This document shows positions 20,135 to 38,000 of a stretch of 43,895 nt of DNA, in pieces. Origin of the DNA: a virus; IMG/VR virus record IMGVR_UViG_3300049794_000015, positions 1 through 43,895 of that record; one strand, written 5' to 3'. Each line of letters opens with the position of its first letter. Position 1 is the first letter of the stretch. The notes beneath the pieces are model-generated. The model did no database searches. It had not been told where the DNA came from and saw nothing but the letters and a program-made list of their open reading frames with translations. The position numbers and the translations under genes were made by a program.

Positions 20135-21207
20135 GATTCGCCGCCGGGTGCCTGGTCCCCAACCACCGGGATGTCAGCGGCGCAGTCTGGGCAGAGGTCG
20201 ATCAGTTTGCCGTTGGCCCTTTTCCGTACCCAGCCTTTCCTTTTGGCTTCGGCACGGGCGAGCTTCAGCCCACGGTCGCCGTCCATTTCGGCGCTCCATG
20301 CGTGCTGCGGACACACCGGGGTCGCGTCCGGTTCGTCCTGCTTCGGTTCGGGTTCGGGTTGGGGCACGGTCACAAACGCCGAGAGAAGCCTTGACAGCTT
20401 CTGCGCTTCCGGGTCCATCTTGGCCACGGCCTGGTCGCTAGCGTTGTCGGTCCATACGGTGCTGTGGCCGCTGCTGTCCGGCGCGCTCTTGTGGATGTGG
20501 TCCCCGGGGGGCAGCGAGCAGGTTGCGACGCCGTTGGCGTAGGTGGAAGTGCATCGTACGGACGCCCCGACTTCGCCGTGTTCCGAGCAGACCCCGTCCG
20601 GGACCGGTTCGCCGCACATCCCCTCAGGGTCAGACCCTGCCTCGCCGCACAGCGGCGCCTGCTCGGTGGCGTCGGTGTCCGGTTCGGGTGGCGCGGCCGG
20701 TGGGCATCCGTCGCGGTGTCCCATCATGCTCGTGCGCTGCCCGCATCGGTGGCAGTGGTAGTGATTCTCGCCGGATACGTCGCACCCGCAGTGTTCGCAC
20801 CAGCCGCTCACTTCGACCGTGGCTGGTTGCAGCTCGCCGGCACGCTGGTGGCCATCGACCCGCGCCTGCCGGGAGTAATCCGGCTCGAATCGGGCGGCCC
20901 AGGTCGAGGCGCATTGCTCGGGGCTGGTGTGCGCGGCCAGCCTGGTGCGCGCGGCTGTCAGCTCGGCCATGCGCTCTCCGATCCACGCGATCATCAATCC
21001 ACCCGTGTTCGGGGCACCCAGCTCGACAAGCGTGTCCTCGACCCGCCGTAGCCGCTCCACTTCCCCGAGCGCCGCGCACCGCGCGCGGTGTTTCCGCAGA
21101 TCCTGTTTCAGGTAGTGGATCTCGTAATACAGATCATGGTTGGCGCACCCAGGAACGGCGACGGCTAGCGGGTTCGTGCAGTCCGGGCACTGGGCGTCGT
21201 CAGGCAT
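20131..21207 (-). CDS. Multi-zinc-finger protein
   Basis: The 358-aa product has several cysteine clusters: CPDC at 7-10 with CANH at 21-24, then a helical coiled region (about 27-95), CEHCGC at 137-142 with CHRC at 152-155, further Cys at 187, 198, 207, 219 and 230, and CPQH at 299-302 with CPDC at 339-342. The last part ([21 protein letters not shown] followed by LCPDC) is the same module as the two small zinc proteins at 12979 and 19928. The coiled N-terminal part resembles no family I know. It may act as a scaffold binding several partners or nucleic acid. Overlaps the clamp gene by 8 nt. Confidence 0.75.
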
Positions 21208-22273
21208 CGGCCGGCTCCTCTTCTTCCTCGGCGAGCGCCCGATCCACGATCCCGCTCACCACGTCGGTCACCAGGTCGGCGACCAGCGGCAGCGGATCGG
21301 TCACCGCGGCTTTCTTCCGGATCTTGAGCAGCACCCCGCCGAGTTCGTCCGGGCGCACGAGCACGGTCCGCGACTTGGTGCCGTCAGCCGGCCCGACCAC
21401 GCCGAGCACTTCCAGCTCGTCTAGCAGGCGTTCGGCGCGGGCGAACCCGACGCGTAGTTTCCGCTGCAACTGTGACGTGGACCCGAACCCCGCGATGACC
21501 ACCAGGTCAGCGGCCTGCTCCAGCAGGCTGTCCGGGTCGACCTGGGGGCGTTCCTCCTCTGGGGGGAGCTCGGCCGCATAGATGTCACCGCCGGGGGACC
21601 GGCCGGCTTGGGGGGTTTTCTCGTCGGGCCAGGACGCGGGGGTGAGCGCACCCCGGTAGCGCTCGCCGATCTGTACGAGGATCGCGCGGCGCTGGTGGAA
21701 CCGGTAGGTCTCGATGACCCCGCCGTGTGCTTTGGCGACGGCGGCGAACGCGGCCAACGCGGTGCCTGGGAGGTCCGTACGCGGCATGGGTGCCGCTTTC
21801 AGGTAACCGCCAGGCTCCCAGGCCCGGTCGTCGCGGAGGACGGCCCACAGGCCGCGCGGGAACTTGCTGAGGTCTCCGCCGGTGAACTCGATTTTGTCGC
21901 CTTCACCGAACAGGTCGGGGTCTTCCTCGACCTGCACGATGTGACCGTCGAACCGGATGTGCAACTGGTGGTCTTTGTTGTCCTTGGTCGCGGCCCGGAA
22001 CGTGTTGCACACGTTCGACGCTTTCGCCAACGGCCACAGCATCGGCTGTGTCATCTGCCCGTAGCACTCGACGTAGGTGTGGCCGACCGCGAGCCGGTTC
22101 GTGGAGGTCCCGACCAGGATGTCTGTCTGCCCGGGGTCGCCGGGGAAGCCGTAGCCGCGTGCGGTGTGCAGCAGGATCCCGTTGGTGGCGCCGCCTTCCA
22201 GGTCGGGGTGGGTGGTGGGTTTCAGGTCCCCGATCAACTCGATCAGTTTCACAGTGGCGATGCGGATGGTCAT
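21200..22273 (-). CDS. Sliding-clamp-like protein fused to FtsK-gamma winged helix
   Basis: The 357-aa product starts at ATG 22273 (TGATG with the RusA stop). Residues 247-307 ([20 protein letters not shown], then [20 protein letters not shown] and [18 protein letters not shown]) closely match the FtsK gamma winged-helix domain that reads KOPS DNA in FtsK. Residues 1-215 show a clamp-like alternation of helices and strands ([46 protein letters not shown] near 197-212 resembles the end of DnaN). The clamp call is tentative; the gamma domain is firm. It could hold DNA polymerase on phage DNA or direct DNA movement. No ATPase is present. Confidence 0.6.
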
Positions 22274-22749
22274 CAGAGGTATTCCTCGGGATAGGTGCCG
22301 GTGAAGTGCCACACGTCGATGTGCGCGCCGCACCGTTCACCGGGCGCGGCATACCGTTTACGGGATTCGTGTTCGACGATCTGCGCGTCATCGTGAAGGA
22401 CCTTCGCGATCTTCAACGCGTCGCACACCGCACGGAGCAGCTTGTCCCCGTCCGGGACGCTCGTGTGTGGTGGTGTCGGCCGCGTTTTCGGCAGCCGGAC
22501 CGGGCGGGGCATCACGAACGTGCACACCACCCGGACCGGCACACCCTTCTCGAACCGGGCGCGGGGCTCGTTACGGCCGTTCAAGCACGCTTCCACGATC
22601 TTCCCCCGCCACGCCGGCAGGGCTTTCGCGGACTCGACCAGGTTCACTTTCCCGGTGAACCGCCGGTTGCGGCCGCGGCCGGCGGTCAACGGGATCGCGT
22701 CTTTGCTGCCCTGCGACACAGGGACCCCGGGCACGAACACGCGCAGCAT
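22273..22749 (-). CDS. rusA: RusA-family Holliday junction resolvase
   Basis: I chose ATG 22749; a GTG six nt upstream is possible. The 158-aa product shows the RusA signature [14 protein letters not shown] (residues 99-112) followed by [15 protein letters not shown] (119-133). Asp100, Asp102 and Asp120/Asp121 are the likely metal ligands and Lys near 131 a DNA contact. The N-terminal [16 protein letters not shown] is also typical. It would resolve four-way junctions produced by the phage recombination genes upstream (nuclease, annealing candidate). Overlaps the clamp start. Confidence 0.88.
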
Positions 22750-23251: not shown

Positions 23252-24209
23252 CGGGGTCAACGTTCTCGACCACGCCACCGTCGGAAGCGACCAACAGTTC
23301 GTCCCAAGACATGACGGACTGGTCGCTGCCATCGGTCCAGAGCCACCGGTCATCGCCCGTGCGGGCCCACAGGATGGGGTCGACGGCGGGATCGGCTTCC
23401 CGCACGATCATCAGCTCGTCGGGGCACGGGTCGCCGGGGTGGAACCGGCGCGGCTCGACCACCAGCGGCCCGCCGTCGACGGCGGCCATGGTTTCGGTCA
23501 CCGCCGGGTCGCTGTAGTGCCCGATGACCCGGTTGCGGTCGTAGCCCTCTTGCAGCTTCACATCCTCACCGACCTGAGGGCCGACCGTGTCCGCGGGCGC
23601 CCGGAGGATCTCCGTGACGACGGCTTCCCACCAGCCTTTCCCGCGGTTGTCCGGCTGGGGCTCGGCGTACCGGGTGAGGACTGCGACGAACGCGCCGTCC
23701 GCGTCGCTGTCGCAGTGCTCGACCAGGTTCCCGGCTTCCCACGGGCCACAGAAGTGGCCACCGACCGCGAACACCGCACGCACCTTCACCGGTTCGCCGT
23801 CGAGGCCCAGGTACTGCTGATTGGCCGTCATGGCCGTCACCTGCTCGCCGGTCAGCGGCACCACTGTGGGTGCTGGTGTTGGTGTGGTGAGTTCCCGGGT
23901 GATGTAGTCGATGATCTCGTCATCGGTCAGGCCGTCGCCGTCGACGAGCAGCGCTTCCTCGACCCGGTCCCGGAACAGCTTGGCTGCCACATAGCGTTCG
24001 TGCAGGGCGGCGACCAGCTCGGTGTCCGTCATCCCGAACTCTTCCCGATGGTCGAGCATGGCGTGGAGCAGGTCCCGCAACGCGAGGTACTGGCCGGTGA
24101 CTTTGGTGTGTTCGCTGGCCCATTCCTGGTCGGCCGCGATCGCGAGCGCACGGTCATGCAACAGGGCGTGGAGCGCGTCAACGTCGATCGGGATCAAAAA
24201 ATTGTTCAT
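23244..24209 (-). CDS. 321-aa hypothetical protein
   Basis: The N-terminal 110 residues are helical (ALAIAADQEWASEHTKVTGQ and ALHERYVAAKLFRDRVEEAL). Residues 125-321 are beta-rich and acidic, with a Cys/His pair (GGHFCGPWEAGNLVEHCDSD), a DPCPDEL motif and a Trp-rich C-terminus (WTDGSDQSVMSWDELLVASD). No catalytic motif recognised. It overlaps the LuxR-type gene by 4 nt. Confidence 0.72.
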   Translation of the reverse strand: MNNFLIPIDVDALHALLHDRALAIAADQEWASEHTKVTGQYLALRDLLHAMLDHREEFGMTDTELVAALHERYVAAKLFRDRVEEALLVDGDGLTDDEIIDYITRELTTPTPAPTVVPLTGEQVTAMTANQQYLGLDGEPVKVRAVFAVGGHFCGPWEAGNLVEHCDSDADGAFVAVLTRYAEPQPDNRGKGWWEAVVTEILRAPADTVGPQVGEDVKLQEGYDRNRVIGHYSDPAVTETMAAVDGGPLVVEPRRFHPGDPCPDELMIVREADPAVDPILWARTGDDRWLWTDGSDQSVMSWDELLVASDGGVVENVDPDA

Positions 24210-24472
24210 GAGCGTGACCGGGTTTCTGTGTCGGGGAACGGGAGTATGCCCATCCTGAAAGCGATAGCGACAGCGTGCGCCCGTTCACGGGCGCCGAGTT
24301 TCTCATACATGCTGTGACTGTGGGACGCGACGGTTCGCACACTGATGTACAGGAGTTTCGCGATAACTTTCCGGGAAACGCCTTCGGCGGTGAAGTAAAG
24401 GATTTGCTTTTCGCGGGGGGTGAGCTTCGGTATTTCTGTGGGGATGGCCCGGGGGGTGGCGGTGCGGTTCAC
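24206..24472 (-). CDS. LuxR/GerE-type HTH regulator
   Basis: The 88-aa product starts at GTG 24472 (GTGA overlap). KLTPREKQILYFTAEGVSRK, then VIAKLLYISVRTVASHSHSM and YEKLGARERAHAVAIAFRMG is the classical LuxR/GerE DNA-binding domain (residues about 16-75). No receiver or ligand domain is present, so this is a minimal effector-free regulator, like WhiB-era or GerE-size proteins. In a phage it may control host or phage genes. ESKA-type helix residues (VRTVASH) are intact. Confidence 0.85.
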   Translation of the reverse strand: MNRTATPRAIPTEIPKLTPREKQILYFTAEGVSRKVIAKLLYISVRTVASHSHSMYEKLGARERAHAVAIAFRMGILPFPDTETRSRS

Positions 24473-25641
24473 TGGTCCTGTCCGTCGCGGATGTGTTCGA
24501 GCATGGCGTCCAGGGCGTGGCCGGGATGTTCGTCGGCGACACAGTTGGTGAGTGTGACGATCAGACCCGACGCTTCTTCGGGGGTGAGGGAGTCGAGGCC
24601 GGTGATGTCGTTGCGGCCCACCAGAGTCCGGATGTCGTCCAGCTCTGCGCCATCCAGGTCGGTGTTGTATTCCAAAGAGGACAGAAGTGTCTTCAGGGTG
24701 TCGCGCTGGGCGTGTGTGGCGCCGAGTCCCATGGTTTCGTTGAGAGCGGCCACGTTGCGCTCGACGTCGGCCAGGGATGTCACGCTGTCTTTGATCTTCT
24801 GCAACAGGTCCTTGTCGGTGCCGCCGGTGGCCAGGTCGGCGGCTTCCAACCGCACGGGCGGGAACTCGTCCACCACCGTGGCCCGGCCTTGGGTGATGGC
24901 GGTGTTGATCGTGGTCAGCTTCGCGAGATCCAGCGCTGTCCACTGTGCGCTCTTGCGGTCGAGGCGCCGCTCAAGCTGGTCCTGTGTCACGTTGTGATCG
25001 GCGGCGAACTTGCCTACCGCGTTGGCTTTCCGCTCGGCCAACGGCACCCCGCCGCCATGCTCCAGTGTGCGCAGCAGACTCTTGCGGGCCCGGTCCAGGT
25101 ACCACGGCGGCAGGACGTCTTTCAAGCATTCCCGCAACCGGCGGGACGCGTTGTTGGTGAGCAGCTCGTACACGTCCCGCACGTCGGTCAGGGTCTTGTC
25201 GCCGTAGCTGGTGTTCCGCACGTGCGGAACCACGATCCGACGCTCGGCGCGGTTGTTGCGCTGCATGTCCCAAGCCCACACGAGCATTTCCGACTCGTGC
25301 CGCTGCCGGTCCTGCCGCAGTTCCGTGTACGAGTATTGGACGTTCCCCCAACAGCGGATGAGTTCTTTCATCGCGACAATGGTGAGGTCAAAGATACGTT
25401 TCGGTTTGCCTTTGTCGTCTTTACCGCGCGTAAAGTCATAGAACGCCGCGGCGGCGAACTCGGCGTTGCCGCACGATTCGTCCATTTCGGCGACGGCGGA
25501 CTCAACGTTGCGGGGGCAGTTCTGGGCCACCACCACCAGCGCCTGGACTTCAGCGGCGGCTCTGGCCTGCTCGATGCTGGTGGACTGCCCGATGTGGTCG
25601 GCGTGGCTGGCAGCCGATGGCAGTGTGATCTCGCTACTCAT
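24469..25641 (-). CDS. Candidate single-strand annealing / recombination protein
   Basis: The 390-aa product (ATG 25641) contains a conserved-looking block: QARAAAEVQALVVVAQNCPR, then NVESAVAEMDESCGNAEFAA, and a region with KELIRCWGNVQYSYTELRQD, SEMLVWAWDMQRNNRAERRI, VVPHVRNTSYG and LTDVRDVYELLTNNASRRLR. This resembles a widespread phage family that usually sits beside RecE-like nucleases, in the place of the RecT/ERF-type annealing protein. The C-terminal third is helical and less conserved. The role (annealing of ssDNA during recombination) is inferred from context: nuclease at 26026, RusA at 22273. Confidence 0.6.
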   Translation of the reverse strand: MSSEITLPSAASHADHIGQSTSIEQARAAAEVQALVVVAQNCPRNVESAVAEMDESCGNAEFAAAAFYDFTRGKDDKGKPKRIFDLTIVAMKELIRCWGNVQYSYTELRQDRQRHESEMLVWAWDMQRNNRAERRIVVPHVRNTSYGDKTLTDVRDVYELLTNNASRRLRECLKDVLPPWYLDRARKSLLRTLEHGGGVPLAERKANAVGKFAADHNVTQDQLERRLDRKSAQWTALDLAKLTTINTAITQGRATVVDEFPPVRLEAADLATGGTDKDLLQKIKDSVTSLADVERNVAALNETMGLGATHAQRDTLKTLLSSLEYNTDLDGAELDDIRTLVGRNDITGLDSLTPEEASGLIVTLTNCVADEHPGHALDAMLEHIRDGQDQ

Positions 25642-25832: not shown

Positions 25833-26026
25833 TTGCCCGGCCCGTCGACGTCGCCGAAGTCGTTCAGGACGTCGACGAGCACCTGGGGGGCGACCTTGCC
25901 CAGCTCGTGGGCGACGAACTCCGGGTTGTCGGGGAAGTGGACTTGGATCTCGCGCGAGTGCTTCTCGACCGGGTGTCCGGGCCCCGGACTGGTGACGGTG
26001 ATCGTCACGGCAATGATGGCGTCCAT
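25829..26026 (-). CDS. 65-aa hypothetical protein
   Basis: The product begins with a beta strand (MDAIIAVTITVTSPGP), a charged middle (KHSREIQVHFPDNPEF) and a helix (VAHELGKVAPQVLVDVLNDF). Both ends overlap neighbours by 1-4 nt. No family recognised; it may be an accessory of the nuclease upstream. Confidence 0.65.
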   Translation of the reverse strand: MDAIIAVTITVTSPGPGHPVEKHSREIQVHFPDNPEFVAHELGKVAPQVLVDVLNDFGDVDGPGK

Positions 26027-27105
26027 CAGTTGGTGGTCTCCTCCGCTAGCCGCTCTGCCCAGCCGGGCAGGCGTCCGTTAGCCACCGGGACGTCGAACCC
26101 GGTGGGGATTTCTTTGTAGACGTACCCGGGCCACTGGTTGGTGGTGGTGCAGTGCCGGTACAGGTCCAAAGCCTTGTCGTTCAACAACTTCCCCCACATC
26201 AAAGCGAGGCTGTCTAATTCTAGTACAGTGACGATGTACGGCGGTACCTTTTCTTGCACCACAAACGCGAACACGACCTCCGTGGGGTCGTCGGCCAGGC
26301 CGCACCCCACCGCCCGGTCGATGTACCACGGCGCCTGCTGGTGATAGCCGTGCTCGACCGCCGACTTCATGAACGACGTCGGTTCGGCCGAGCGGCCTGT
26401 CTTGTAATCCACCAGAATCAGCCGGCCATGCCGGTCACGGCGCCCGGTCAGATAGTCCAGCCGCGCCCGGCACATCACCTTCGTGCGCGGGTCCTCGCTG
26501 ATCAACGTCACTTCCGCGTGCCCACCACGGAACAGGGGACCGGCGATGGGGTGGTCGTACACCGTCAGCGCCATTTCCTGCGCCCGGTCGAGCTGGTGGG
26601 GCAGGACCGGGGTCTTGTGCTCGGCGTGCGCGGCTTTCTTGGCCTGCTGGGCGGCTTTGGTCTTGTAGTCCCCGGCGTCGATCTCGACCAGCTCGGCGCC
26701 GGCGCCGAGCACCAGACGATGCACGGTGTGGCCCAGGTCGAACTCGTCTTTCGGTTCCTGTTCGTCGGGGTGGTCCTGCTGCCACCGGAACTTGGCCGGG
26801 CAGCCCTTGGGGGGCAGCAGCAGGCGGGCGCCGGTGGAGGACAGTGACCCGCCGAGCACGGGATCGGCGTGGTAGTCCTCGGCGGCCAGGTCGAGGTACA
26901 GGCCGGGGCCGGGGACGAGCAGTTTCGGGCGGGCGGCTTTCGCGGCGAGTTCCGCCAGCCGCTCGCCGAGCGCGGCTTTCTCGGTGGGGGACAGGGTTTC
27001 CACGTCGTCGCCCGCCCGCTCCGGAGCGGGCGGTGGGGCTGTGACCGGGCCGTCCGGGGCGGGTCCTATGTCGGCTGGGTCGACGAAAAACTCGCCATCG
27101 GTCAC
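26026..27105 (-). CDS. RecE-like PD-(D/E)XK exonuclease
   Basis: The 359-aa product (GTG 27105) has a low-complexity N-terminus (1-60) and a nuclease domain from about 65: GLYLDLAAEDYHADPVLGGS resembles the RecE/exonuclease VIII-like family, GHTVHRLVL (125-133), AEVTLI (197-202), RARLDYL (213-219) and LVDYKTG (231-237). His126, Glu198, Asp217, Asp233 and Lys235 are the expected catalytic set of RecB/Cas4-type PD-(D/E)XK nucleases. It should process DNA ends to single strands for annealing by a partner, probably the 24469-25641 product. Co-transcribed leftward with the recombination genes. Confidence 0.82.
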   Translation of the reverse strand: MTDGEFFVDPADIGPAPDGPVTAPPPAPERAGDDVETLSPTEKAALGERLAELAAKAARPKLLVPGPGLYLDLAAEDYHADPVLGGSLSSTGARLLLPPKGCPAKFRWQQDHPDEQEPKDEFDLGHTVHRLVLGAGAELVEIDAGDYKTKAAQQAKKAAHAEHKTPVLPHQLDRAQEMALTVYDHPIAGPLFRGGHAEVTLISEDPRTKVMCRARLDYLTGRRDRHGRLILVDYKTGRSAEPTSFMKSAVEHGYHQQAPWYIDRAVGCGLADDPTEVVFAFVVQEKVPPYIVTVLELDSLALMWGKLLNDKALDLYRHCTTTNQWPGYVYKEIPTGFDVPVANGRLPGWAERLAEETTN

Positions 27106-31713: not shown

Positions 31714-31764
31714 GGTAGCCGGTCAACCAGAGCCTGGTGTGCGCCTCAAACGCAACCGGCTACC
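31714..31764 (+). promoter_or_regulatory. 10-bp inverted repeat upstream of the pre-terminase genes
   Basis: GGTAGCCGGT (31714-31723) and ACCGGCTACC (31755-31764) are perfect inverted repeats 31 nt apart; an inner CCA...TGG pair occurs in the loop. It lies in the 91-nt gap before the ATG at 31800. It could be an operator pair or a leader RNA hairpin controlling 31800 onward. Confidence 0.55.
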
Positions 31765-31799
31765 ACCCCTGTTACCACCAGACAGGAGACACTCCCAGC

Positions 31800-32213
31800 A
31801 TGTGGACCAACACCGGTAGTCCCGGTAAATGGACGTTCGACACCACCAGCGACGTCCCCGGCGGACCCATCCCCGGCACCCCCGAACCCGAACGCCAGTT
31901 CCTGCTCCACGACAGCGGCGTGTACATCGAATACAAACGCGACACGATCCACATGTACACCAGCGGAATCACCCCCGACGAGAACGCCGACTTCGACCAC
32001 GCCACCAGCCCACTGCACGAAGCGACCTGGGTGAAAACCGCCGTCAACTCCCAGTTCGCCGAGCTGGACGACGACGCGGTGTGGCTGCTCATGGCCGAAA
32101 TGGCCGACATCGACGCCCCCGAATGGCAGCGTCCCACCCCGCAAAACCCGGGCCAAACGGTCATGACCGCCATCCCGATCCCGGCACCCGCCGAGCAGGC
32201 CGGCGACCAGTGA
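31800..32213 (+). CDS. 137-aa hypothetical protein
   Basis: ATG 31800 after CAGGAG. Residues 1-45 are beta-rich (KWTFDTTSDVPGGPIPGTPE), 45-75 form a sheet (LLHDSGVYIEYKRDTIHMYT), and the C-terminus has an acidic helix (VNSQFAELDDDAVWLLMAEM). It is coupled by GTGA to the DUF2829 gene, so the two may work together. No family recognised. Confidence 0.68.
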   Translation: MWTNTGSPGKWTFDTTSDVPGGPIPGTPEPERQFLLHDSGVYIEYKRDTIHMYTSGITPDENADFDHATSPLHEATWVKTAVNSQFAELDDDAVWLLMAEMADIDAPEWQRPTPQNPGQTVMTAIPIPAPAEQAGDQ

Positions 32214-32842
32214 ACCTCGACGACCAGGCGGCGAAGCTCGCCGACATGGAACGCGACATGGACCGGCAGCAAGCCATCCAACGCGCACAACAGGCCGAAG
32301 CCCAAGCGGTCAACAGTGGCAGCGCCAAACCCCGCGTAGAGATCATCTCCAACGGCCTGACCAACGGCACGATCATCACCGTCGATGGCGAACCACTCGC
32401 CGGGGTCGAAGCCGTCACTGTGACCGCCAACAGCCGGGACCCGCTCGTCCGCGCGCGGGTCACCGTCGCCGGCCCCCAAGCCTCCATGACCACCGACCAC
32501 ATCGACATCGCCGGCAGGGACGTCACCCGCGGCGACTTCGGGTTCGCCCTCGGCGTACTCCGCGCCGGTGGCCGGGTCACCCGCGTCATCTGGGACGGGC
32601 AGCTGGGCACCTCCGCGTGGCTGGTGCTCGTGCCCGGGTCGACGTTCACGGTCGAAGAAGGCCGGCCGGTCTCGAAGGCCTTCCCACCGCTGGTCGGTAG
32701 CCAGGTCGAGTACCAGCCGCACATCGACCTGTACCAGTTCGGGTCGCTGGAAGTGTGGGCCCCGAGCACGACAGACCTGCTGGCCACCGACTGGCGTGTC
32801 ATCCCCCCAACGCCCCCCGGCAGTGAGGCTGGTTCCGTATGA
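32210..32842 (+). CDS. DUF2829 (Tad2-like) anti-defence protein
   Basis: GTG 32210. The 210-aa product has an N-terminal coil (1-35), a beta domain (about 40-103) and a C-terminal DUF2829 domain (109-199): DFGFALGVLRAGGRVTRVIW, then AWLVLVPG, HIDLYQFG, EVWAPSTTDLLATDW. DUF2829 is the fold of Tad2, which sequesters gcADPR signals of Thoeris and, in some homologues, CBASS cyclic trinucleotides. The family match is firm; the anti-defence role here is inferred. The fused N-terminal domain is unusual, since known Tad2 proteins are about 100 aa. It lies just before the terminase and is coupled to both neighbours. Confidence 0.78.
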   Translation: MNLDDQAAKLADMERDMDRQQAIQRAQQAEAQAVNSGSAKPRVEIISNGLTNGTIITVDGEPLAGVEAVTVTANSRDPLVRARVTVAGPQASMTTDHIDIAGRDVTRGDFGFALGVLRAGGRVTRVIWDGQLGTSAWLVLVPGSTFTVEEGRPVSKAFPPLVGSQVEYQPHIDLYQFGSLEVWAPSTTDLLATDWRVIPPTPPGSEAGSV

Positions 32843-33147
32843 CACGCCCCGACTCGACCCCGCCGCCCGTGACCGCGCCCGTCGACGAGACACCAGCGTG
32901 GAAGCGGCAGCCACCGTCCCTCGGCCGGATCGTGATCGTCCCGATGGACCCGGACAAGAACAACGGCGCCAACACCGCGCCCGCGATCATCACCCGCGTG
33001 TGGAACGACACCATGGTCAACGTCCGGGTACAGCCGGACACCGCGTCCACGTTCATGCGGACCAGTGTCGAACTCGCCGACTCGGTACCGACCGTCGTCG
33101 ACGGCGAACTCGCGCCGCACGTGTGGTCCTGGCCACCGAGGACATAG
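32839..33147 (+). CDS. 102-aa hypothetical protein, actinophage family
   Basis: ATG 32839 (ATGA overlap). After a disordered N-terminus the core is KRQPPSLGRIVIVPMDPDKN and TAPAIITRVWNDTMVNVRVQ, a pattern found in many actinophage and actinobacterial genes near head genes, with beta-barrel character (SLGRIVIV, AIITRVW, NVRV). Function unknown. It is followed by the terminase small subunit after 2 nt. Confidence 0.7.
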   Translation: MTRPDSTPPPVTAPVDETPAWKRQPPSLGRIVIVPMDPDKNNGANTAPAIITRVWNDTMVNVRVQPDTASTFMRTSVELADSVPTVVDGELAPHVWSWPPRT

Positions 33148-33149
33148 CG

Positions 33150-33839
33150 ATGGCCAGATGTGTCGGGAAAAGCCGCCGGTTGGGCGGGCAGCAGTGCCGC
33201 AACCCCGCGATCCGCGGCGGGACGGTGTGCCGCATGCACGGCGGGAACAGCCCGAACACCAGGGCACGCGCCGCGATCCGGGCGGAGGTGTTGGACTGGG
33301 GTTTGGGTGACTCCAATATCAACCCCTCGGAGATCCTGCTGCGGCTGCTGTCGCAGTCCGCGGCGCGAGCCCAGTTTTACGCCCGCCTGCTGCAGCAGGC
33401 CTACGACGCGGCCGAGCAGGCCCGGGAAGCTGGTGTGGATGTCGGGGACATTGACCCGCCGGACGTCGACACCATGGACCGGCGCGCACGCCGGCAGCTG
33501 ACGAAGATCGCGCTGGACCAGATTTCGACGGTCGGCGGCCTCACGGCGTTGATCGGGCACACCTACGGGGACACGAAGACCGGTGAGATCTATGCGACCG
33601 GTGAAGCCGTGCGTGGCTTGGCGTTGCTGGAAGGCCAGGAGCGGGATCGGTGTGCGGGGTTCGCTGAGAAGGCGATCAAGGCCGGTTTGGCCGAGCGGCA
33701 GGTGAAGTTGGCGGAGCAGCAGGGCGAGATGATCGTCGCGGTGCTGCGTGCGGTGTTCGACGAGCTTGGCTTGTCGGATGAGCAGCGGGAGCGGGTGCCT
33801 GGTGTCGTCCGCCGTCACCTCACCGCCATCGCCGGGTGA
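33150..33839 (+). CDS. terS: Terminase small subunit candidate
   Basis: ATG 33150. The 229-aa product starts with a Cys/His motif (MARCVGKSRRLGGQQCRNPA, then GGTVCRMHGGNSPN) typical of phage and plasmid zinc-finger-type terminase small subunits. A helical, coiled C-terminal region follows (LLRLLSQSAARAQFYARLLQ and KLAEQQGEMIVAVLRAVFDE). It should bind the packaging site and recruit the large subunit, which begins inside it (38-nt overlap). The pac/cos site is not identified. Confidence 0.75.
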   Translation: MARCVGKSRRLGGQQCRNPAIRGGTVCRMHGGNSPNTRARAAIRAEVLDWGLGDSNINPSEILLRLLSQSAARAQFYARLLQQAYDAAEQAREAGVDVGDIDPPDVDTMDRRARRQLTKIALDQISTVGGLTALIGHTYGDTKTGEIYATGEAVRGLALLEGQERDRCAGFAEKAIKAGLAERQVKLAEQQGEMIVAVLRAVFDELGLSDEQRERVPGVVRRHLTAIAG

Positions 33840-35304
33840 TCCGTGGGAGCACGCTCTCACGTTGTTGGAGGCTGACAACACGGCGCGCCGTCACGTCAGG
33901 GACGGCGCGCTGTGGGTGAAAGACCGTTTGGGTGAGCATCTGTGGTCGATGCAGGTGCAGGCGATGGTGTCGGTGCGGGATCACCGGTTTACGGCGATCA
34001 AGGCGTGCCACGGGCCGGGTAAGTCGAGGCTTGCGTCGAGGGTTGCGGCGTGGTGGATGGAGACCCACCCGGCCGGTTCGGCCCGTGTGGTGACCACGGC
34101 CCCGACCGGTGACCAGGTCCGGGCCATCTTGTGGGCGGAGATCAACAACGCGGCGAACACCGCGTCCGCGCGGGGTCAGCCGTTCCGTGGCCGCATGAAC
34201 GAAACCGAGTGGAAGGTCAACAACCAGCTCGTCGCGTTCGGCCGGAAACCCTCGGACTACAACCCGCACGCCTTCCAAGGCATCCACGCCCGCTACGTCC
34301 TGGTCATCCTGGACGAGGCGTGCGGGATTATTCCCCACTTCTGGACCGCCGCGCGCGCGCTCACCACCGGCGAAGACTGCCGGATCCTCGCGATCGGCAA
34401 CCCCGACGACCCGGACAGCGAGTTCGCGAAAGTCTGCGCGTCCGACAAGTGGAACGTGATCACCATCAGCGCGTTCGACACCCCGAACTTCACCGACGAA
34501 TGGGTCCCCGCCGAGCTGGCCGCGGTCCTGGTCGGACCCACCTACGTGGAAGACATGCGCACCGAGTACGGCGTCGATTCCCCCATCTACGCCGCGAAAG
34601 TGTTGGGTGAGTTCCCGCTCGATTCCGATGATGGCGTGGTCGCCTACTCGAAACTGAAACGCTGCTCCGCGCCCGAACCGGTCCCCCGCTCACCGGAGGA
34701 ACAACTCCCTGTCGAGCTCGGCGTGGACTTGGGGGCCGGCGGCGACGAGACAGTCATCCAGGAACGCCGCGGCATGGTGGTGGGCCGCCGGTGGACGACA
34801 CGCACGAGGGACGCGATGGCCGCAACGGGCCTGATCGTGCAGGCCATCAGGGACACTGACGCCACCAGCGTCAAGGTCGATGTGATCGGGATCGGGTGGG
34901 GGGTGGTGGGCCGGTTGAACGAGCTGGTAGCGGAGGGGAAGATCACGAGCGTGATCATCGGGGTAAACGTCGCCGAGTCCAGCGCGCAACCGGAGAAGTA
35001 CGCGCGGCTACGGTCACAGATCTGGTGGGAGGTCGGCCGGCGCCTGGTCGAGGACCGGGGGATCGACTTTTCGCAGCTGCCCGGGGATTATCGCGACAAG
35101 CTGTTCGCTCAACTCTCGGCCCCGAAATACACCCACGATTCGTCGGGCAGGATTGTTGTCGAACCGAAAGACGAAACGAAGAAACGCCTGGGCCGGTCAC
35201 CAGATAACGCCGATGCGCTGTTGCTGTCGTTCTACGTCCCGGCCGGTGACGGCGGGGACGCGCTCGCCTACCTGCGGGCGATGAAACAAGCTGGGAGGGG
35301 GTGA
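33802..35304 (+). CDS. terL: Terminase large subunit
   Basis: The 500-aa product is started from GTG 33802 (38-nt overlap with the previous gene); an upstream start at 33748 is less likely. ATPase: Walker A ACHGPGKSRLA at about 66-76 and Walker B YVLVILDEACG at about 165-175. Nuclease: ELGVDLGAGGDETVI near 302-316 supplies the first Asp and PDNADALLLSF near 466 the last, as in the RNase H-like TerL nuclease. It packages DNA into the prohead. The sequence belongs to the general Terminase_6 type. Confidence 0.93.
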   Translation: MSSAVTSPPSPGDPWEHALTLLEADNTARRHVRDGALWVKDRLGEHLWSMQVQAMVSVRDHRFTAIKACHGPGKSRLASRVAAWWMETHPAGSARVVTTAPTGDQVRAILWAEINNAANTASARGQPFRGRMNETEWKVNNQLVAFGRKPSDYNPHAFQGIHARYVLVILDEACGIIPHFWTAARALTTGEDCRILAIGNPDDPDSEFAKVCASDKWNVITISAFDTPNFTDEWVPAELAAVLVGPTYVEDMRTEYGVDSPIYAAKVLGEFPLDSDDGVVAYSKLKRCSAPEPVPRSPEEQLPVELGVDLGAGGDETVIQERRGMVVGRRWTTRTRDAMAATGLIVQAIRDTDATSVKVDVIGIGWGVVGRLNELVAEGKITSVIIGVNVAESSAQPEKYARLRSQIWWEVGRRLVEDRGIDFSQLPGDYRDKLFAQLSAPKYTHDSSGRIVVEPKDETKKRLGRSPDNADALLLSFYVPAGDGGDALAYLRAMKQAGRG

Positions 35305-38000
35305 CCGTGGTAGCTCGTAGGCCGAACCGGCTCACACCGCGCACGGTCACCCGCCGGATCGCGTCCGGGCCACCACCGTCGATCGAGAAGGCCCTGCCCG
35401 CTGGCCTGCTCGGCCCCGGGGTCAACGGGCGGGTGACGGATGTCGCGTCCCTGGTCGCAGCGGCCCAACAGCCGCAGTCGGGGCTTGCGGTGCCGATGCC
35501 CCGCGACACGTACCCGTACATGTTCGGGCCGGGCATGCCGTTGCAGCCCTCACCGCTGGACCCGGTCCGCCGGGACACCGGCCGCGCCGAGCCGCGGCAG
35601 TGGGAATACCCGGTGTCCTGGAATATTCAGGTCCCGGGGGTCACGAACCGGCTGGTGCCGTGGCAGTTGTTGCGGGACGCGGCGGACAGGATCGCGGTGA
35701 TCCGTGACTGCATCCGGATCCGGAAGAACGAGGTGATCGGCCTCGACTGGGACATCGTGATTTCCCAACGCGCGGTGGAAACAGCGCAGCGGGAAAAACC
35801 TGACGCGAAACGCGTCGATCTGGAGCGCGATATTCGGAAGGAACTCGGCCCGCACATCGACAGGTGCGCCGAGTTTTGGCAGGAACCCGACAAGCGCAAC
35901 GGGCACGACTTCACCACCTGGATCTCCAAGGCACTTGAGGAACACCTCGTGCTGGACGCCGTGTCGATCTATCCGCGGGCGACGCTCGGCGGGGACCTCT
36001 ATGGCCTGGAAATCTTGGACGGCACGACGATCAAACCGTTGCTGGATCACACCGGTGGGCGGCCGTTGCCGCCGTTCCCGGCGTATCAGCAGGTGTTGCA
36101 AGGGTTCCCGCGCGGCGAGTATGTGGCTGATGTGGAGGGTGGGGACGGGTACACGAGTGACGCGTTGATCTATCGGGTGAAGGAGGCGCGGACGTTCACG
36201 CCGTACGGGTTTTCGGCGGTGGAGCAGTCCCTTGAGGACGCTGATTTGTGGATCAAGCGGATGTCGTGGATGAAGGCTGAGTACACCGACGGGACGATGC
36301 CGTCCGGGTGGATCAAGAACATGGGGACCGCGGCGTGGACGCCTGGCCAGGTGATGGAGTACGAGACGGAGCTGAACGACTGGTACTCGGGGCAGACGAA
36401 GCAGCGGCACAGGTATCGGGTGCTACCGCCGGGGTTTGAGCCGGTCGACTCGCGGCAGACCGATGAGCGTTACAAACCGGACTATGACCTGCACCTGTTG
36501 AAGCTGGTCACGGCCCATTTTGACATGACCATCGCGGAGCTGGGGTTCACCGAAGCGAAAGGTCTCGGGTCGTCCGGGTATCACGAGGGGCAGGAGAACG
36601 TCCAGGACCGCAAAGCGACCCGGCCCACGTTGAAGTGGTTGGCGGGGGTGCTGACCGATATTTCCCGGAAGTTCCTGCGCATGCCCGCCCAGCTCGAATT
36701 CCGGTTCCTCGGCCTGGACGACGAGGACCAGGCCGAAGCGGACAAGGTCAACCAGACCCGGTTCGCGAACGGCGGCATCACGTTGAACGAGTGGCGTGAT
36801 GAGCGCGGCCAGCCCAGGTATGCGATGCCGGAAGCGGACATGCCGATGATCGTCACCTCGCGCGGGGTGGTGTTCCTGGAAGGCGCGTCGGAGTTGCTGC
36901 CGCCGGGTGAGTTGGTCGAGCCGCGGGAAGCGGACCCCAACGTCGACCCCGCCACCGGCGACCCGGTCGACGACACAGACCCTGGCGCACCAGTCAGCCC
37001 CCCGGCAGGTGCGCCAGGCACCAAACCCGCCGACAAGCCGGTCAAGCCGGCGGCCGGGCAGGACGTGAAGAAAGCCGAGCTGCTCGCCTACCGCCGGTGG
37101 GCCCGCAAAGGCACCTCGAACCGGGCGTTCCGGTTCGAGCACATCACCGCCGATGACCCCGCGCTCGCCGAGCTCCCCGAGCTCGACCCGGCGACCGTCG
37201 TGTTCAAAGCCGGTGATGCCGGCCCAAAAGCACTGGACGGCCAAGTGTGGCCGGCATGGGAGATCGACCAAGCAACCGCTCGGTATTGGGCGGCCGAGTT
37301 GTCCCGGGTTTTGAGTGGGGTGCCCGTGACCCGGTTGGCTGAACGGTGGACCGAATCCCGCAAGAGCGCGGATTCCGACAGCTGGTTGTCGCAGCAGTCC
37401 GGGAACGCTGTCGGGAACGCGTTGCAACAGGTGATCACCGGGATCTACGGCGACGGCTACGTCATCGGCCTGCACGCCGCTACCTACGCCATCGCGCACG
37501 CCCGCGACAGCACTGTGACCTGGACGTCAGCGTGGGGTGACTGGGCCCCCGGCAACCGGGTCGCGGCGCGCCTGGTCGGCGGCCAAGCCCTCGACCAGTT
37601 CCTGCAACAAGCGCAGGTGACGATCAAGTCGATCGCGGCGAACCGGATGCACCTGCTCGGCGACGCCCTGGCCGATGGCTTGGACGCGGGGGAAGGGCCG
37701 GAAGCGATCGCGCGGACCCTGCGCGGTGTCCTGGACGACCCGAAGTGGGCGTACACGGTCGCGATCACCGAAACCAACCGGGCCGTCACCTACGCCTCCC
37801 AGGAGACCTATCGGCGCAACGGGATCGACGCGTCCGAGTGGATAGCCGGCCCCGGGGCGTGCCCGATCTGCCAACGCAACGCCGACGCCGGGCCGGTCCG
37901 GCTCGGCCAGGTGTTCCCGGACGGGTCGACCGGGCCACCCGGGCATCCGCAATGCCGGTGTGCCACGGCGCCTGTCGTTTCGAGCATGGGAGAGACCTGA
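35301..38000 (+). CDS. Portal protein fused to MuF-type head morphogenesis domain
   Basis: The 899-aa product starts at GTG 35301 (GTGA overlap) or GTG 35307. Residues about 60-530 match the phage portal (SPP1/HK97-like) pattern: WEYPVSWNIQVPG, RDCIRIRKNEVIGLDWDIVI, a central FTPYGFSAVEQSLEDADLWI and LTEAKG-type loops. A Pro/Ala/Asp linker spans about 540-600. The C-terminal MuF domain (about 675-890) ends with ACPICQRN (about 851) and GHPQCRCA (about 881), the usual MuF zinc-like signature. Portal and MuF proteins are usually separate; here they are one chain, which would place about 12 MuF domains at the portal vertex. Confidence 0.88.
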   Translation: MTVVARRPNRLTPRTVTRRIASGPPPSIEKALPAGLLGPGVNGRVTDVASLVAAAQQPQSGLAVPMPRDTYPYMFGPGMPLQPSPLDPVRRDTGRAEPRQWEYPVSWNIQVPGVTNRLVPWQLLRDAADRIAVIRDCIRIRKNEVIGLDWDIVISQRAVETAQREKPDAKRVDLERDIRKELGPHIDRCAEFWQEPDKRNGHDFTTWISKALEEHLVLDAVSIYPRATLGGDLYGLEILDGTTIKPLLDHTGGRPLPPFPAYQQVLQGFPRGEYVADVEGGDGYTSDALIYRVKEARTFTPYGFSAVEQSLEDADLWIKRMSWMKAEYTDGTMPSGWIKNMGTAAWTPGQVMEYETELNDWYSGQTKQRHRYRVLPPGFEPVDSRQTDERYKPDYDLHLLKLVTAHFDMTIAELGFTEAKGLGSSGYHEGQENVQDRKATRPTLKWLAGVLTDISRKFLRMPAQLEFRFLGLDDEDQAEADKVNQTRFANGGITLNEWRDERGQPRYAMPEADMPMIVTSRGVVFLEGASELLPPGELVEPREADPNVDPATGDPVDDTDPGAPVSPPAGAPGTKPADKPVKPAAGQDVKKAELLAYRRWARKGTSNRAFRFEHITADDPALAELPELDPATVVFKAGDAGPKALDGQVWPAWEIDQATARYWAAELSRVLSGVPVTRLAERWTESRKSADSDSWLSQQSGNAVGNALQQVITGIYGDGYVIGLHAATYAIAHARDSTVTWTSAWGDWAPGNRVAARLVGGQALDQFLQQAQVTIKSIAANRMHLLGDALADGLDAGEGPEAIARTLRGVLDDPKWAYTVAITETNRAVTYASQETYRRNGIDASEWIAGPGACPICQRNADAGPVRLGQVFPDGSTGPPGHPQCRCATAPVVSSMGET

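Follow-up and report, generated by a model that had tools for sequence, protein, structure and literature searches.

A Tad2-family protein with a replaced pocket loop and a variable N-terminal segment, predicted to act in counter-defence, from a probable actinobacterial phage

The nearest solved relative of the protein described here is ModTad2, from a Myroides odoratus prophage (PDB 9eib with His-ADPR, 8v3e apo), which blocks type II Thoeris through His-ADPR binding (PMC13299392). SPO1 Tad2 (PDB 8sme, 8smf, 8smg) is a gcADPR sponge, and SptTad2, HgmTad2 and AcrIIA7 (PDB 8wjd, 8kbj, 8kbk) have been solved with cGG and/or cADPR bound. Judged by their entry titles, all of the ligand-bound Tad2-family structures listed among our matches hold a nucleotide signal, whether His-ADPR, gcADPR, cADPR or cGG. 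Two subunits line the Tad2 pocket, the first through the β1-β2 loop, the β3-β4 loop and strand β4, and the other through the β1-β2 loop, the β4-α3 loop and helix α3 (PMC12043709).

Here we describe a Tad2-like gene in a 43.9 kb virus record of about 67% G+C, analysed over its whole length and referred to as the window. We compare its product with these systems and with the allele of a sister phage, L005 (IMGVR_UViG_3300012929_000010; 44.0 kb), whose large terminase is 96% identical at the amino-acid level.

The tad2-like gene and its surroundings

The open reading frame, its coordinates and the motifs quoted from it in the first-pass annotation were all correct (Table 1). GC3 stays at 0.83-0.91 along the gene; the extra N-terminal segment agrees with the remaining gene in composition and codon score, and with the adjacent genes in composition, which marks the segment as coding. 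An ORF artefact was ruled out, since insert and remaining gene have equal codon-position composition, and the long antisense ORFs were dismissed as a usual consequence of high G+C. At each end the gene shares 4 nt with its neighbour, with the upstream stop on one side and the downstream start on the other, which suggests translational coupling to both.

Gene order in this region is the 158-aa gene, the tad2-like gene, the 102-aa gene, the putative small terminase, the large terminase and the portal. The tad2-like gene had been placed just upstream of the terminase; it does lie near, but the 102-aa gene and the putative small terminase intervene before the large subunit, whose real start is probably downstream of the longest-ORF start. 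PADLOC found nothing beside the tad2-like gene, whose neighbours are packaging genes and genes without an assigned function rather than known counter-defence genes, a setting that speaks against a role in counter-defence.

Table 1. Positions of the tad2-like gene, its parts and its neighbours in the window
Feature	Position	Strand	Basis
Upstream gene, 158 aa, function not assigned; kept in sister phage and one more distant relative	31737..32213	+	
tad2-like fusion gene, 210 aa, GTG start at 32210	32210..32842	+	Open frame, PF11195 match, coding composition
N-terminal helix, residues 1-35; residues 1-22 common to sister phage	32210..32314	+	AlphaFold
Extra segment with beta-rich part, residues 23-103, missing in sister phage L005	32276..32518	+	In-frame DNA alignment gap
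Tad2-like domain (PF11195), residues 109-198	32534..32803	+	Pfam, PHROGs, PDB sequence matches, Foldseek and VIA-align
β1-β2 pocket loop, residues 126-136 (VIWDGQLGTSA), 3 residues longer	32585..32617	+	Alignment, family consensus
β4-α3 pocket wall, residues 183-191 (WAPSTTDLL)	32756..32782	+	Conserved residues kept in 54-sequence alignment
Downstream gene, 102 aa, phrog_2293 (function not assigned)	32839..33147	+	
Putative small terminase subunit, phrog_3678 (no function listed)	33150..33839	+	Guessed from position
Large terminase subunit, longest ORF	33748..35304	+	phrog_2, E 5.7e-33

Only one of the 15 related phage contigs examined, that of the sister phage, carries a Tad2-like gene; the other 14 lack it, although they share the terminase. 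In contig L009 the small terminase comes immediately after the counterpart of the 158-aa gene, with no tad2-like gene in between. Because of these absences we regard the gene as accessory.

Amycolatopsis vancoresmycina harbours a prophage whose large terminase is 75% identical, which makes a soil actinobacterium the probable host, possibly a member of the Pseudonocardiaceae. Of 200 genomes from the family that includes this closest prophage relative, 17 have ThsB-type TIR domains and 15 have CD-NTases (SMODS nucleotidyltransferases), that Amycolatopsis being among the 15; suitable host targets exist, and we use these counts as a plausibility check only.

Elsewhere in the window, a 377-aa ORF on the minus strand (21200-22333) contains an FtsK gamma domain (PF09397, E 3.6e-21), which is a DNA-reading domain of chromosome translocases. 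A 245-aa ORF on the same strand (24206-24943) carries a LuxR-type GerE helix-turn-helix (E 8e-14), and its weak PADLOC matches to CARF models cover only the GerE stretch. An Exonuclease VIII-like PDDEXK nuclease (26026-27105, minus strand; phrog_412, E 1.4e-80) is probably part of a recombination module, and one 899-aa frame on the plus strand (35301-38000) combines a portal domain with a Mu F-like head morphogenesis domain. In the Amycolatopsis prophage (L134, 4800-7360), different small ORFs stand upstream of the small terminase, none matching the window genes found there, which suggests a variable accessory slot.

The Tad2-like domain and its pocket

Residues 109-198 match PF11195 'Tad2-like' (formerly DUF2829) over positions 2-73 of the 73-position profile with 45.4 bits (E 1.2e-11), the curated cut-off being 25 bits. 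The initial assignment of residues 109-199 to DUF2829/Tad2 was thereby upheld for the whole domain, far above chance. PHROGs 872 and 1048 also match, with matches that begin only at residue 103 or 89, and the best PDB sequence matches are the two ModTad2 entries (E about 1e-7), followed by weaker ones to SPO1 Tad2 (E 0.0035) and SptTad2 (E 0.02).

An AlphaFold model of the 210-aa protein, built on 54 aligned sequences, has a pLDDT of ~95 across most of the Tad2 domain and 79 at residues 131-140, in the altered loop. The modelled C-terminal part superposes on every solved Tad2-family structure (Foldseek, VIA-align; Z 9.8-11.9, rmsd 1.4-2.7), residues 107-199 aligning with 8v3e_B at Z 11.9 and rmsd 1.4 over 73 residues. 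These matches include 9eib with His-ADPR, SptTad2 with cGG, HgmTad2 with cADPR and SPO1 Tad2 with gcADPR, as well as AcrIIA7, solved with 1',2'-cADPR and cGG according to its entry title. The C-terminal domain is a member of the PF11195 family and, as modelled, has the Tad2 fold.

After the Tad2 proteins, the best structural match is the neck protein of phage 812 (8qkh; Z 6.1, rmsd 3.2, 70 residues). Taken with the position of the gene next to the terminase genes, this could point to a virion structural or assembly protein, acting in the neck or in packaging rather than in counter-defence. We consider such a role very unlikely: a Z of 6.1 is typical of a merely common arrangement and lies far below the scores of real Tad2 proteins, only one of the related contigs checked has the gene, although all share the terminase, and its much faster evolution sets it apart from the packaging genes (dN 0.21 vs 0.03-0.05).

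We placed the published pocket elements on the model by secondary structure, and the ligand pocket residues gave a divided picture, with the β4-α3 wall kept and the RxGWNGK motif of the β1-β2 loop lost. In the β4-α3 part (WAPSTTDLLATDW) the family-conserved residues are retained; W183, D189 and L191 are invariant and S186 nearly invariant in the 54-sequence family alignment, and the wall motif W..S..DLLA.DW is intact throughout (W183, S186, D189, L191, A192, D194, W195). Of 80 viral relatives, 73 have the loop motif RxGWNG[KRQ] (family form xGWNGKxM), which the window protein lacks. There RVIWDGQLGTSAW stands in the window protein and RESWNTHIRNTRW in that of the sister phage, each 3 residues longer than the family form, and relatives from actinobacterial genomes carry other, shorter β1-β2 loops (WP-RDEW, WP-QGRF). 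RxGWNGK is a family consensus and not necessarily a requirement for binding; its loss weakens the claim to an ordinary sponge, not that to family membership.

Since the pocket-lining GWNGK loop of known Tad2 proteins has been lost and lengthened, binding by the window protein cannot be assumed. The position that meets the ligand thus varies within this subgroup, which fits a changed ligand and is also compatible with lost ligand binding. With one pocket wall conserved and the β1-β2 loop replaced, the ligand is probably other than gcADPR; this signal, named at the outset as a target, is not favoured, the nearest solved homologue binding His-ADPR. A cyclic trinucleotide, put forward at the same time, is an unlikely target because Tad2 binds cyclic dinucleotides and not trinucleotides (review PMC12043709).

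If signal binding had been lost altogether, the Tad2-fold domain might have been recruited to bind proteins instead, perhaps inhibiting a defence protein directly, and the activity may reside in the N-terminal segment. The lost pocket loop and its difference between the sister phages would fit such a change, as would the shorter loops swapped in by the actinobacterial relatives and the presence of the same domain in AcrIIA7, which is called an anti-CRISPR (PMC6739104). However, AcrIIA7 itself was solved with nucleotide signals, the β4-α3 wall of the window protein is intact, and the sister phage manages without the extra segment; we judge this function unlikely.

The explanation we favour, and think probable, is that the product is an accessory Tad2-family protein that counters host defence, predicted to sequester a nucleotide-derived signal. 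The C-terminal domain would most likely assemble into the Tad2 tetramer, and a nucleotide-derived alarm signal made by a host TIR or cGAS-like enzyme would be captured and retained in the inter-subunit pockets. With the signal held, the suicide effector would stay untriggered. For the ligand, our leading guess is a His-ADPR-like signal or a cyclic dinucleotide.

The N-terminal helix and the extra segment

About 105 residues precede the Tad2 domain; profile, sequence and fold comparison agree on this, bearing out the N-terminal fusion reported in the first-pass annotation. Of the 'coil and beta domain' described there, the helix stands, being confidently predicted at residues 3-35 (pLDDT about 93-97 over residues 1-30), whereas the strand-rich part (residues about 41-100) is a low-confidence AlphaFold prediction with a pLDDT of 50-60. 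Single-sequence folding of residues 37-105 gave a mean pLDDT of 46.5 and no confident fold.

No relatives of the N-terminal segment were found by tblastn against phages and plasmids, by pattern scans of viral contigs, in the Pfam, PHROGs and PDB sequence libraries, or in 399 genomes of the order, and the N-terminal part alone did not match phrog_872 or phrog_1048. Whole-protein scans of viral and genome contigs, whose reach extends to close relatives only, returned no relative. Three candidates were set aside: a carboxypeptidase regulatory-like domain was sub-threshold (Pfam E 0.02; Deinococcus plasmid protein E 4) and discounted, a match to the Edmundo 'host nuclease inhibitor' (E 10) was attributed to chance, and orf8 of Tetrasphaera phage TJE1 (206 aa), considered as an actinophage counterpart, has an N-terminus that is unrelated by eye.

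The L005 allele, of 135 aa, consists of a 22-residue leader, 86% identical to that of the window protein, about six linker residues and the Tad2 domain; in the pairwise DNA alignment, window residues about 23-103 are lacking from it in frame. The supposed N-terminal domain is thus two things, a common leader helix and a cassette present in one phage only, and the beta-rich piece is an indel cassette because L005 has the same gene with the leader and without these residues. Stand-alone Tad2-like proteins of 113 aa and 97 aa, encoded by two genomes from the host's family, also lack the segment, which makes its gain in the window lineage more likely than its loss in L005, two phages being too few to settle the matter. 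We infer that the helix and the beta-rich segment together make up a modular add-on, and that the lineage of the window phage gained the segment or had it swapped in.

Between the window and L005 the Tad2 part is 72% identical at the amino-acid level (dN 0.205, dS 0.513, dN/dS 0.40), against dN 0.03-0.12 and dS 0.12-0.32 for the genes flanking the tad2-like gene and dN 0.03-0.05 for the packaging genes. Because synonymous divergence is raised too, allele replacement by recombination would explain this divergence better than fast point change alone. A dN/dS below 1 indicates that both alleles are maintained by purifying selection.

The raised dS in the Tad2 part points to recombination at this spot, and the sister phage lacks the segment. 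Together with the absence of relatives and of a confident fold, this could mean that the segment is a neutral recombination passenger with no function of its own, in a protein that acts as a plain Tad2. Its frame is still open and its composition resembles the rest of the gene and the neighbours, and we regard neutrality as possible but doubtful; it would be compatible with signal sequestration by the Tad2 domain. It is quite improbable that the beta-rich segment is instead a second, independent signal- or target-binding domain, making the protein a bifunctional sponge that acts on two defences and is gained or lost as a cassette. Under the counter-defence role that we prefer, the add-on would most plausibly tune oligomerisation or localisation, or offer a second binding surface.

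Comparison with known Tad2 proteins

ModTad2 (fold Z 11-11.9) shares the β4-α3 wall and the overall domain with the window protein. It differs in being 88 aa long, without an N-terminal extension and with a shorter middle segment, and in its loop, GWNGKGM as against IWDGQLGTSA. SPO1 Tad2 belongs to the same domain family and fold (Z 11.2-11.3), but is a weaker sequence match, has a GWNGKNM loop and bears no extension. SptTad2, HgmTad2 and AcrIIA7 have the same fold over ~90 aligned residues; they are 22-27% identical, and their solved chains of ~100 residues lack the N-terminal segment.

In phrog_872, phrog_1048 and BFVD, phage proteins occur in which roughly 75-110 residues precede a C-terminal Tad2 domain; the BFVD entries are 150-270 aa long, and several are annotated as Tad2-like. 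Since such proteins are already known, a Tad2 fusion as such is not new. Their extensions have no detectable sequence similarity to that of the window protein, which also lacks the YRGW...GYISWSP motif of a common extension type in viral contigs. A literature search found no functional work on Tad2 in actinobacterial phages.

The new elements are the extension itself, its occurrence in one phage and not in a close relative, and the changed sequence of the pocket loop. A Tad2-family counter-defence protein, as we interpret it, has been remodelled between close phages by gain or loss of a segment and by rewriting of the signal-pocket loop, which suggests recent remodelling of a known type of counter-defence protein. 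The two natural versions, of 210 aa and 135 aa, provide a ready pair for probing the roles of loop and segment.
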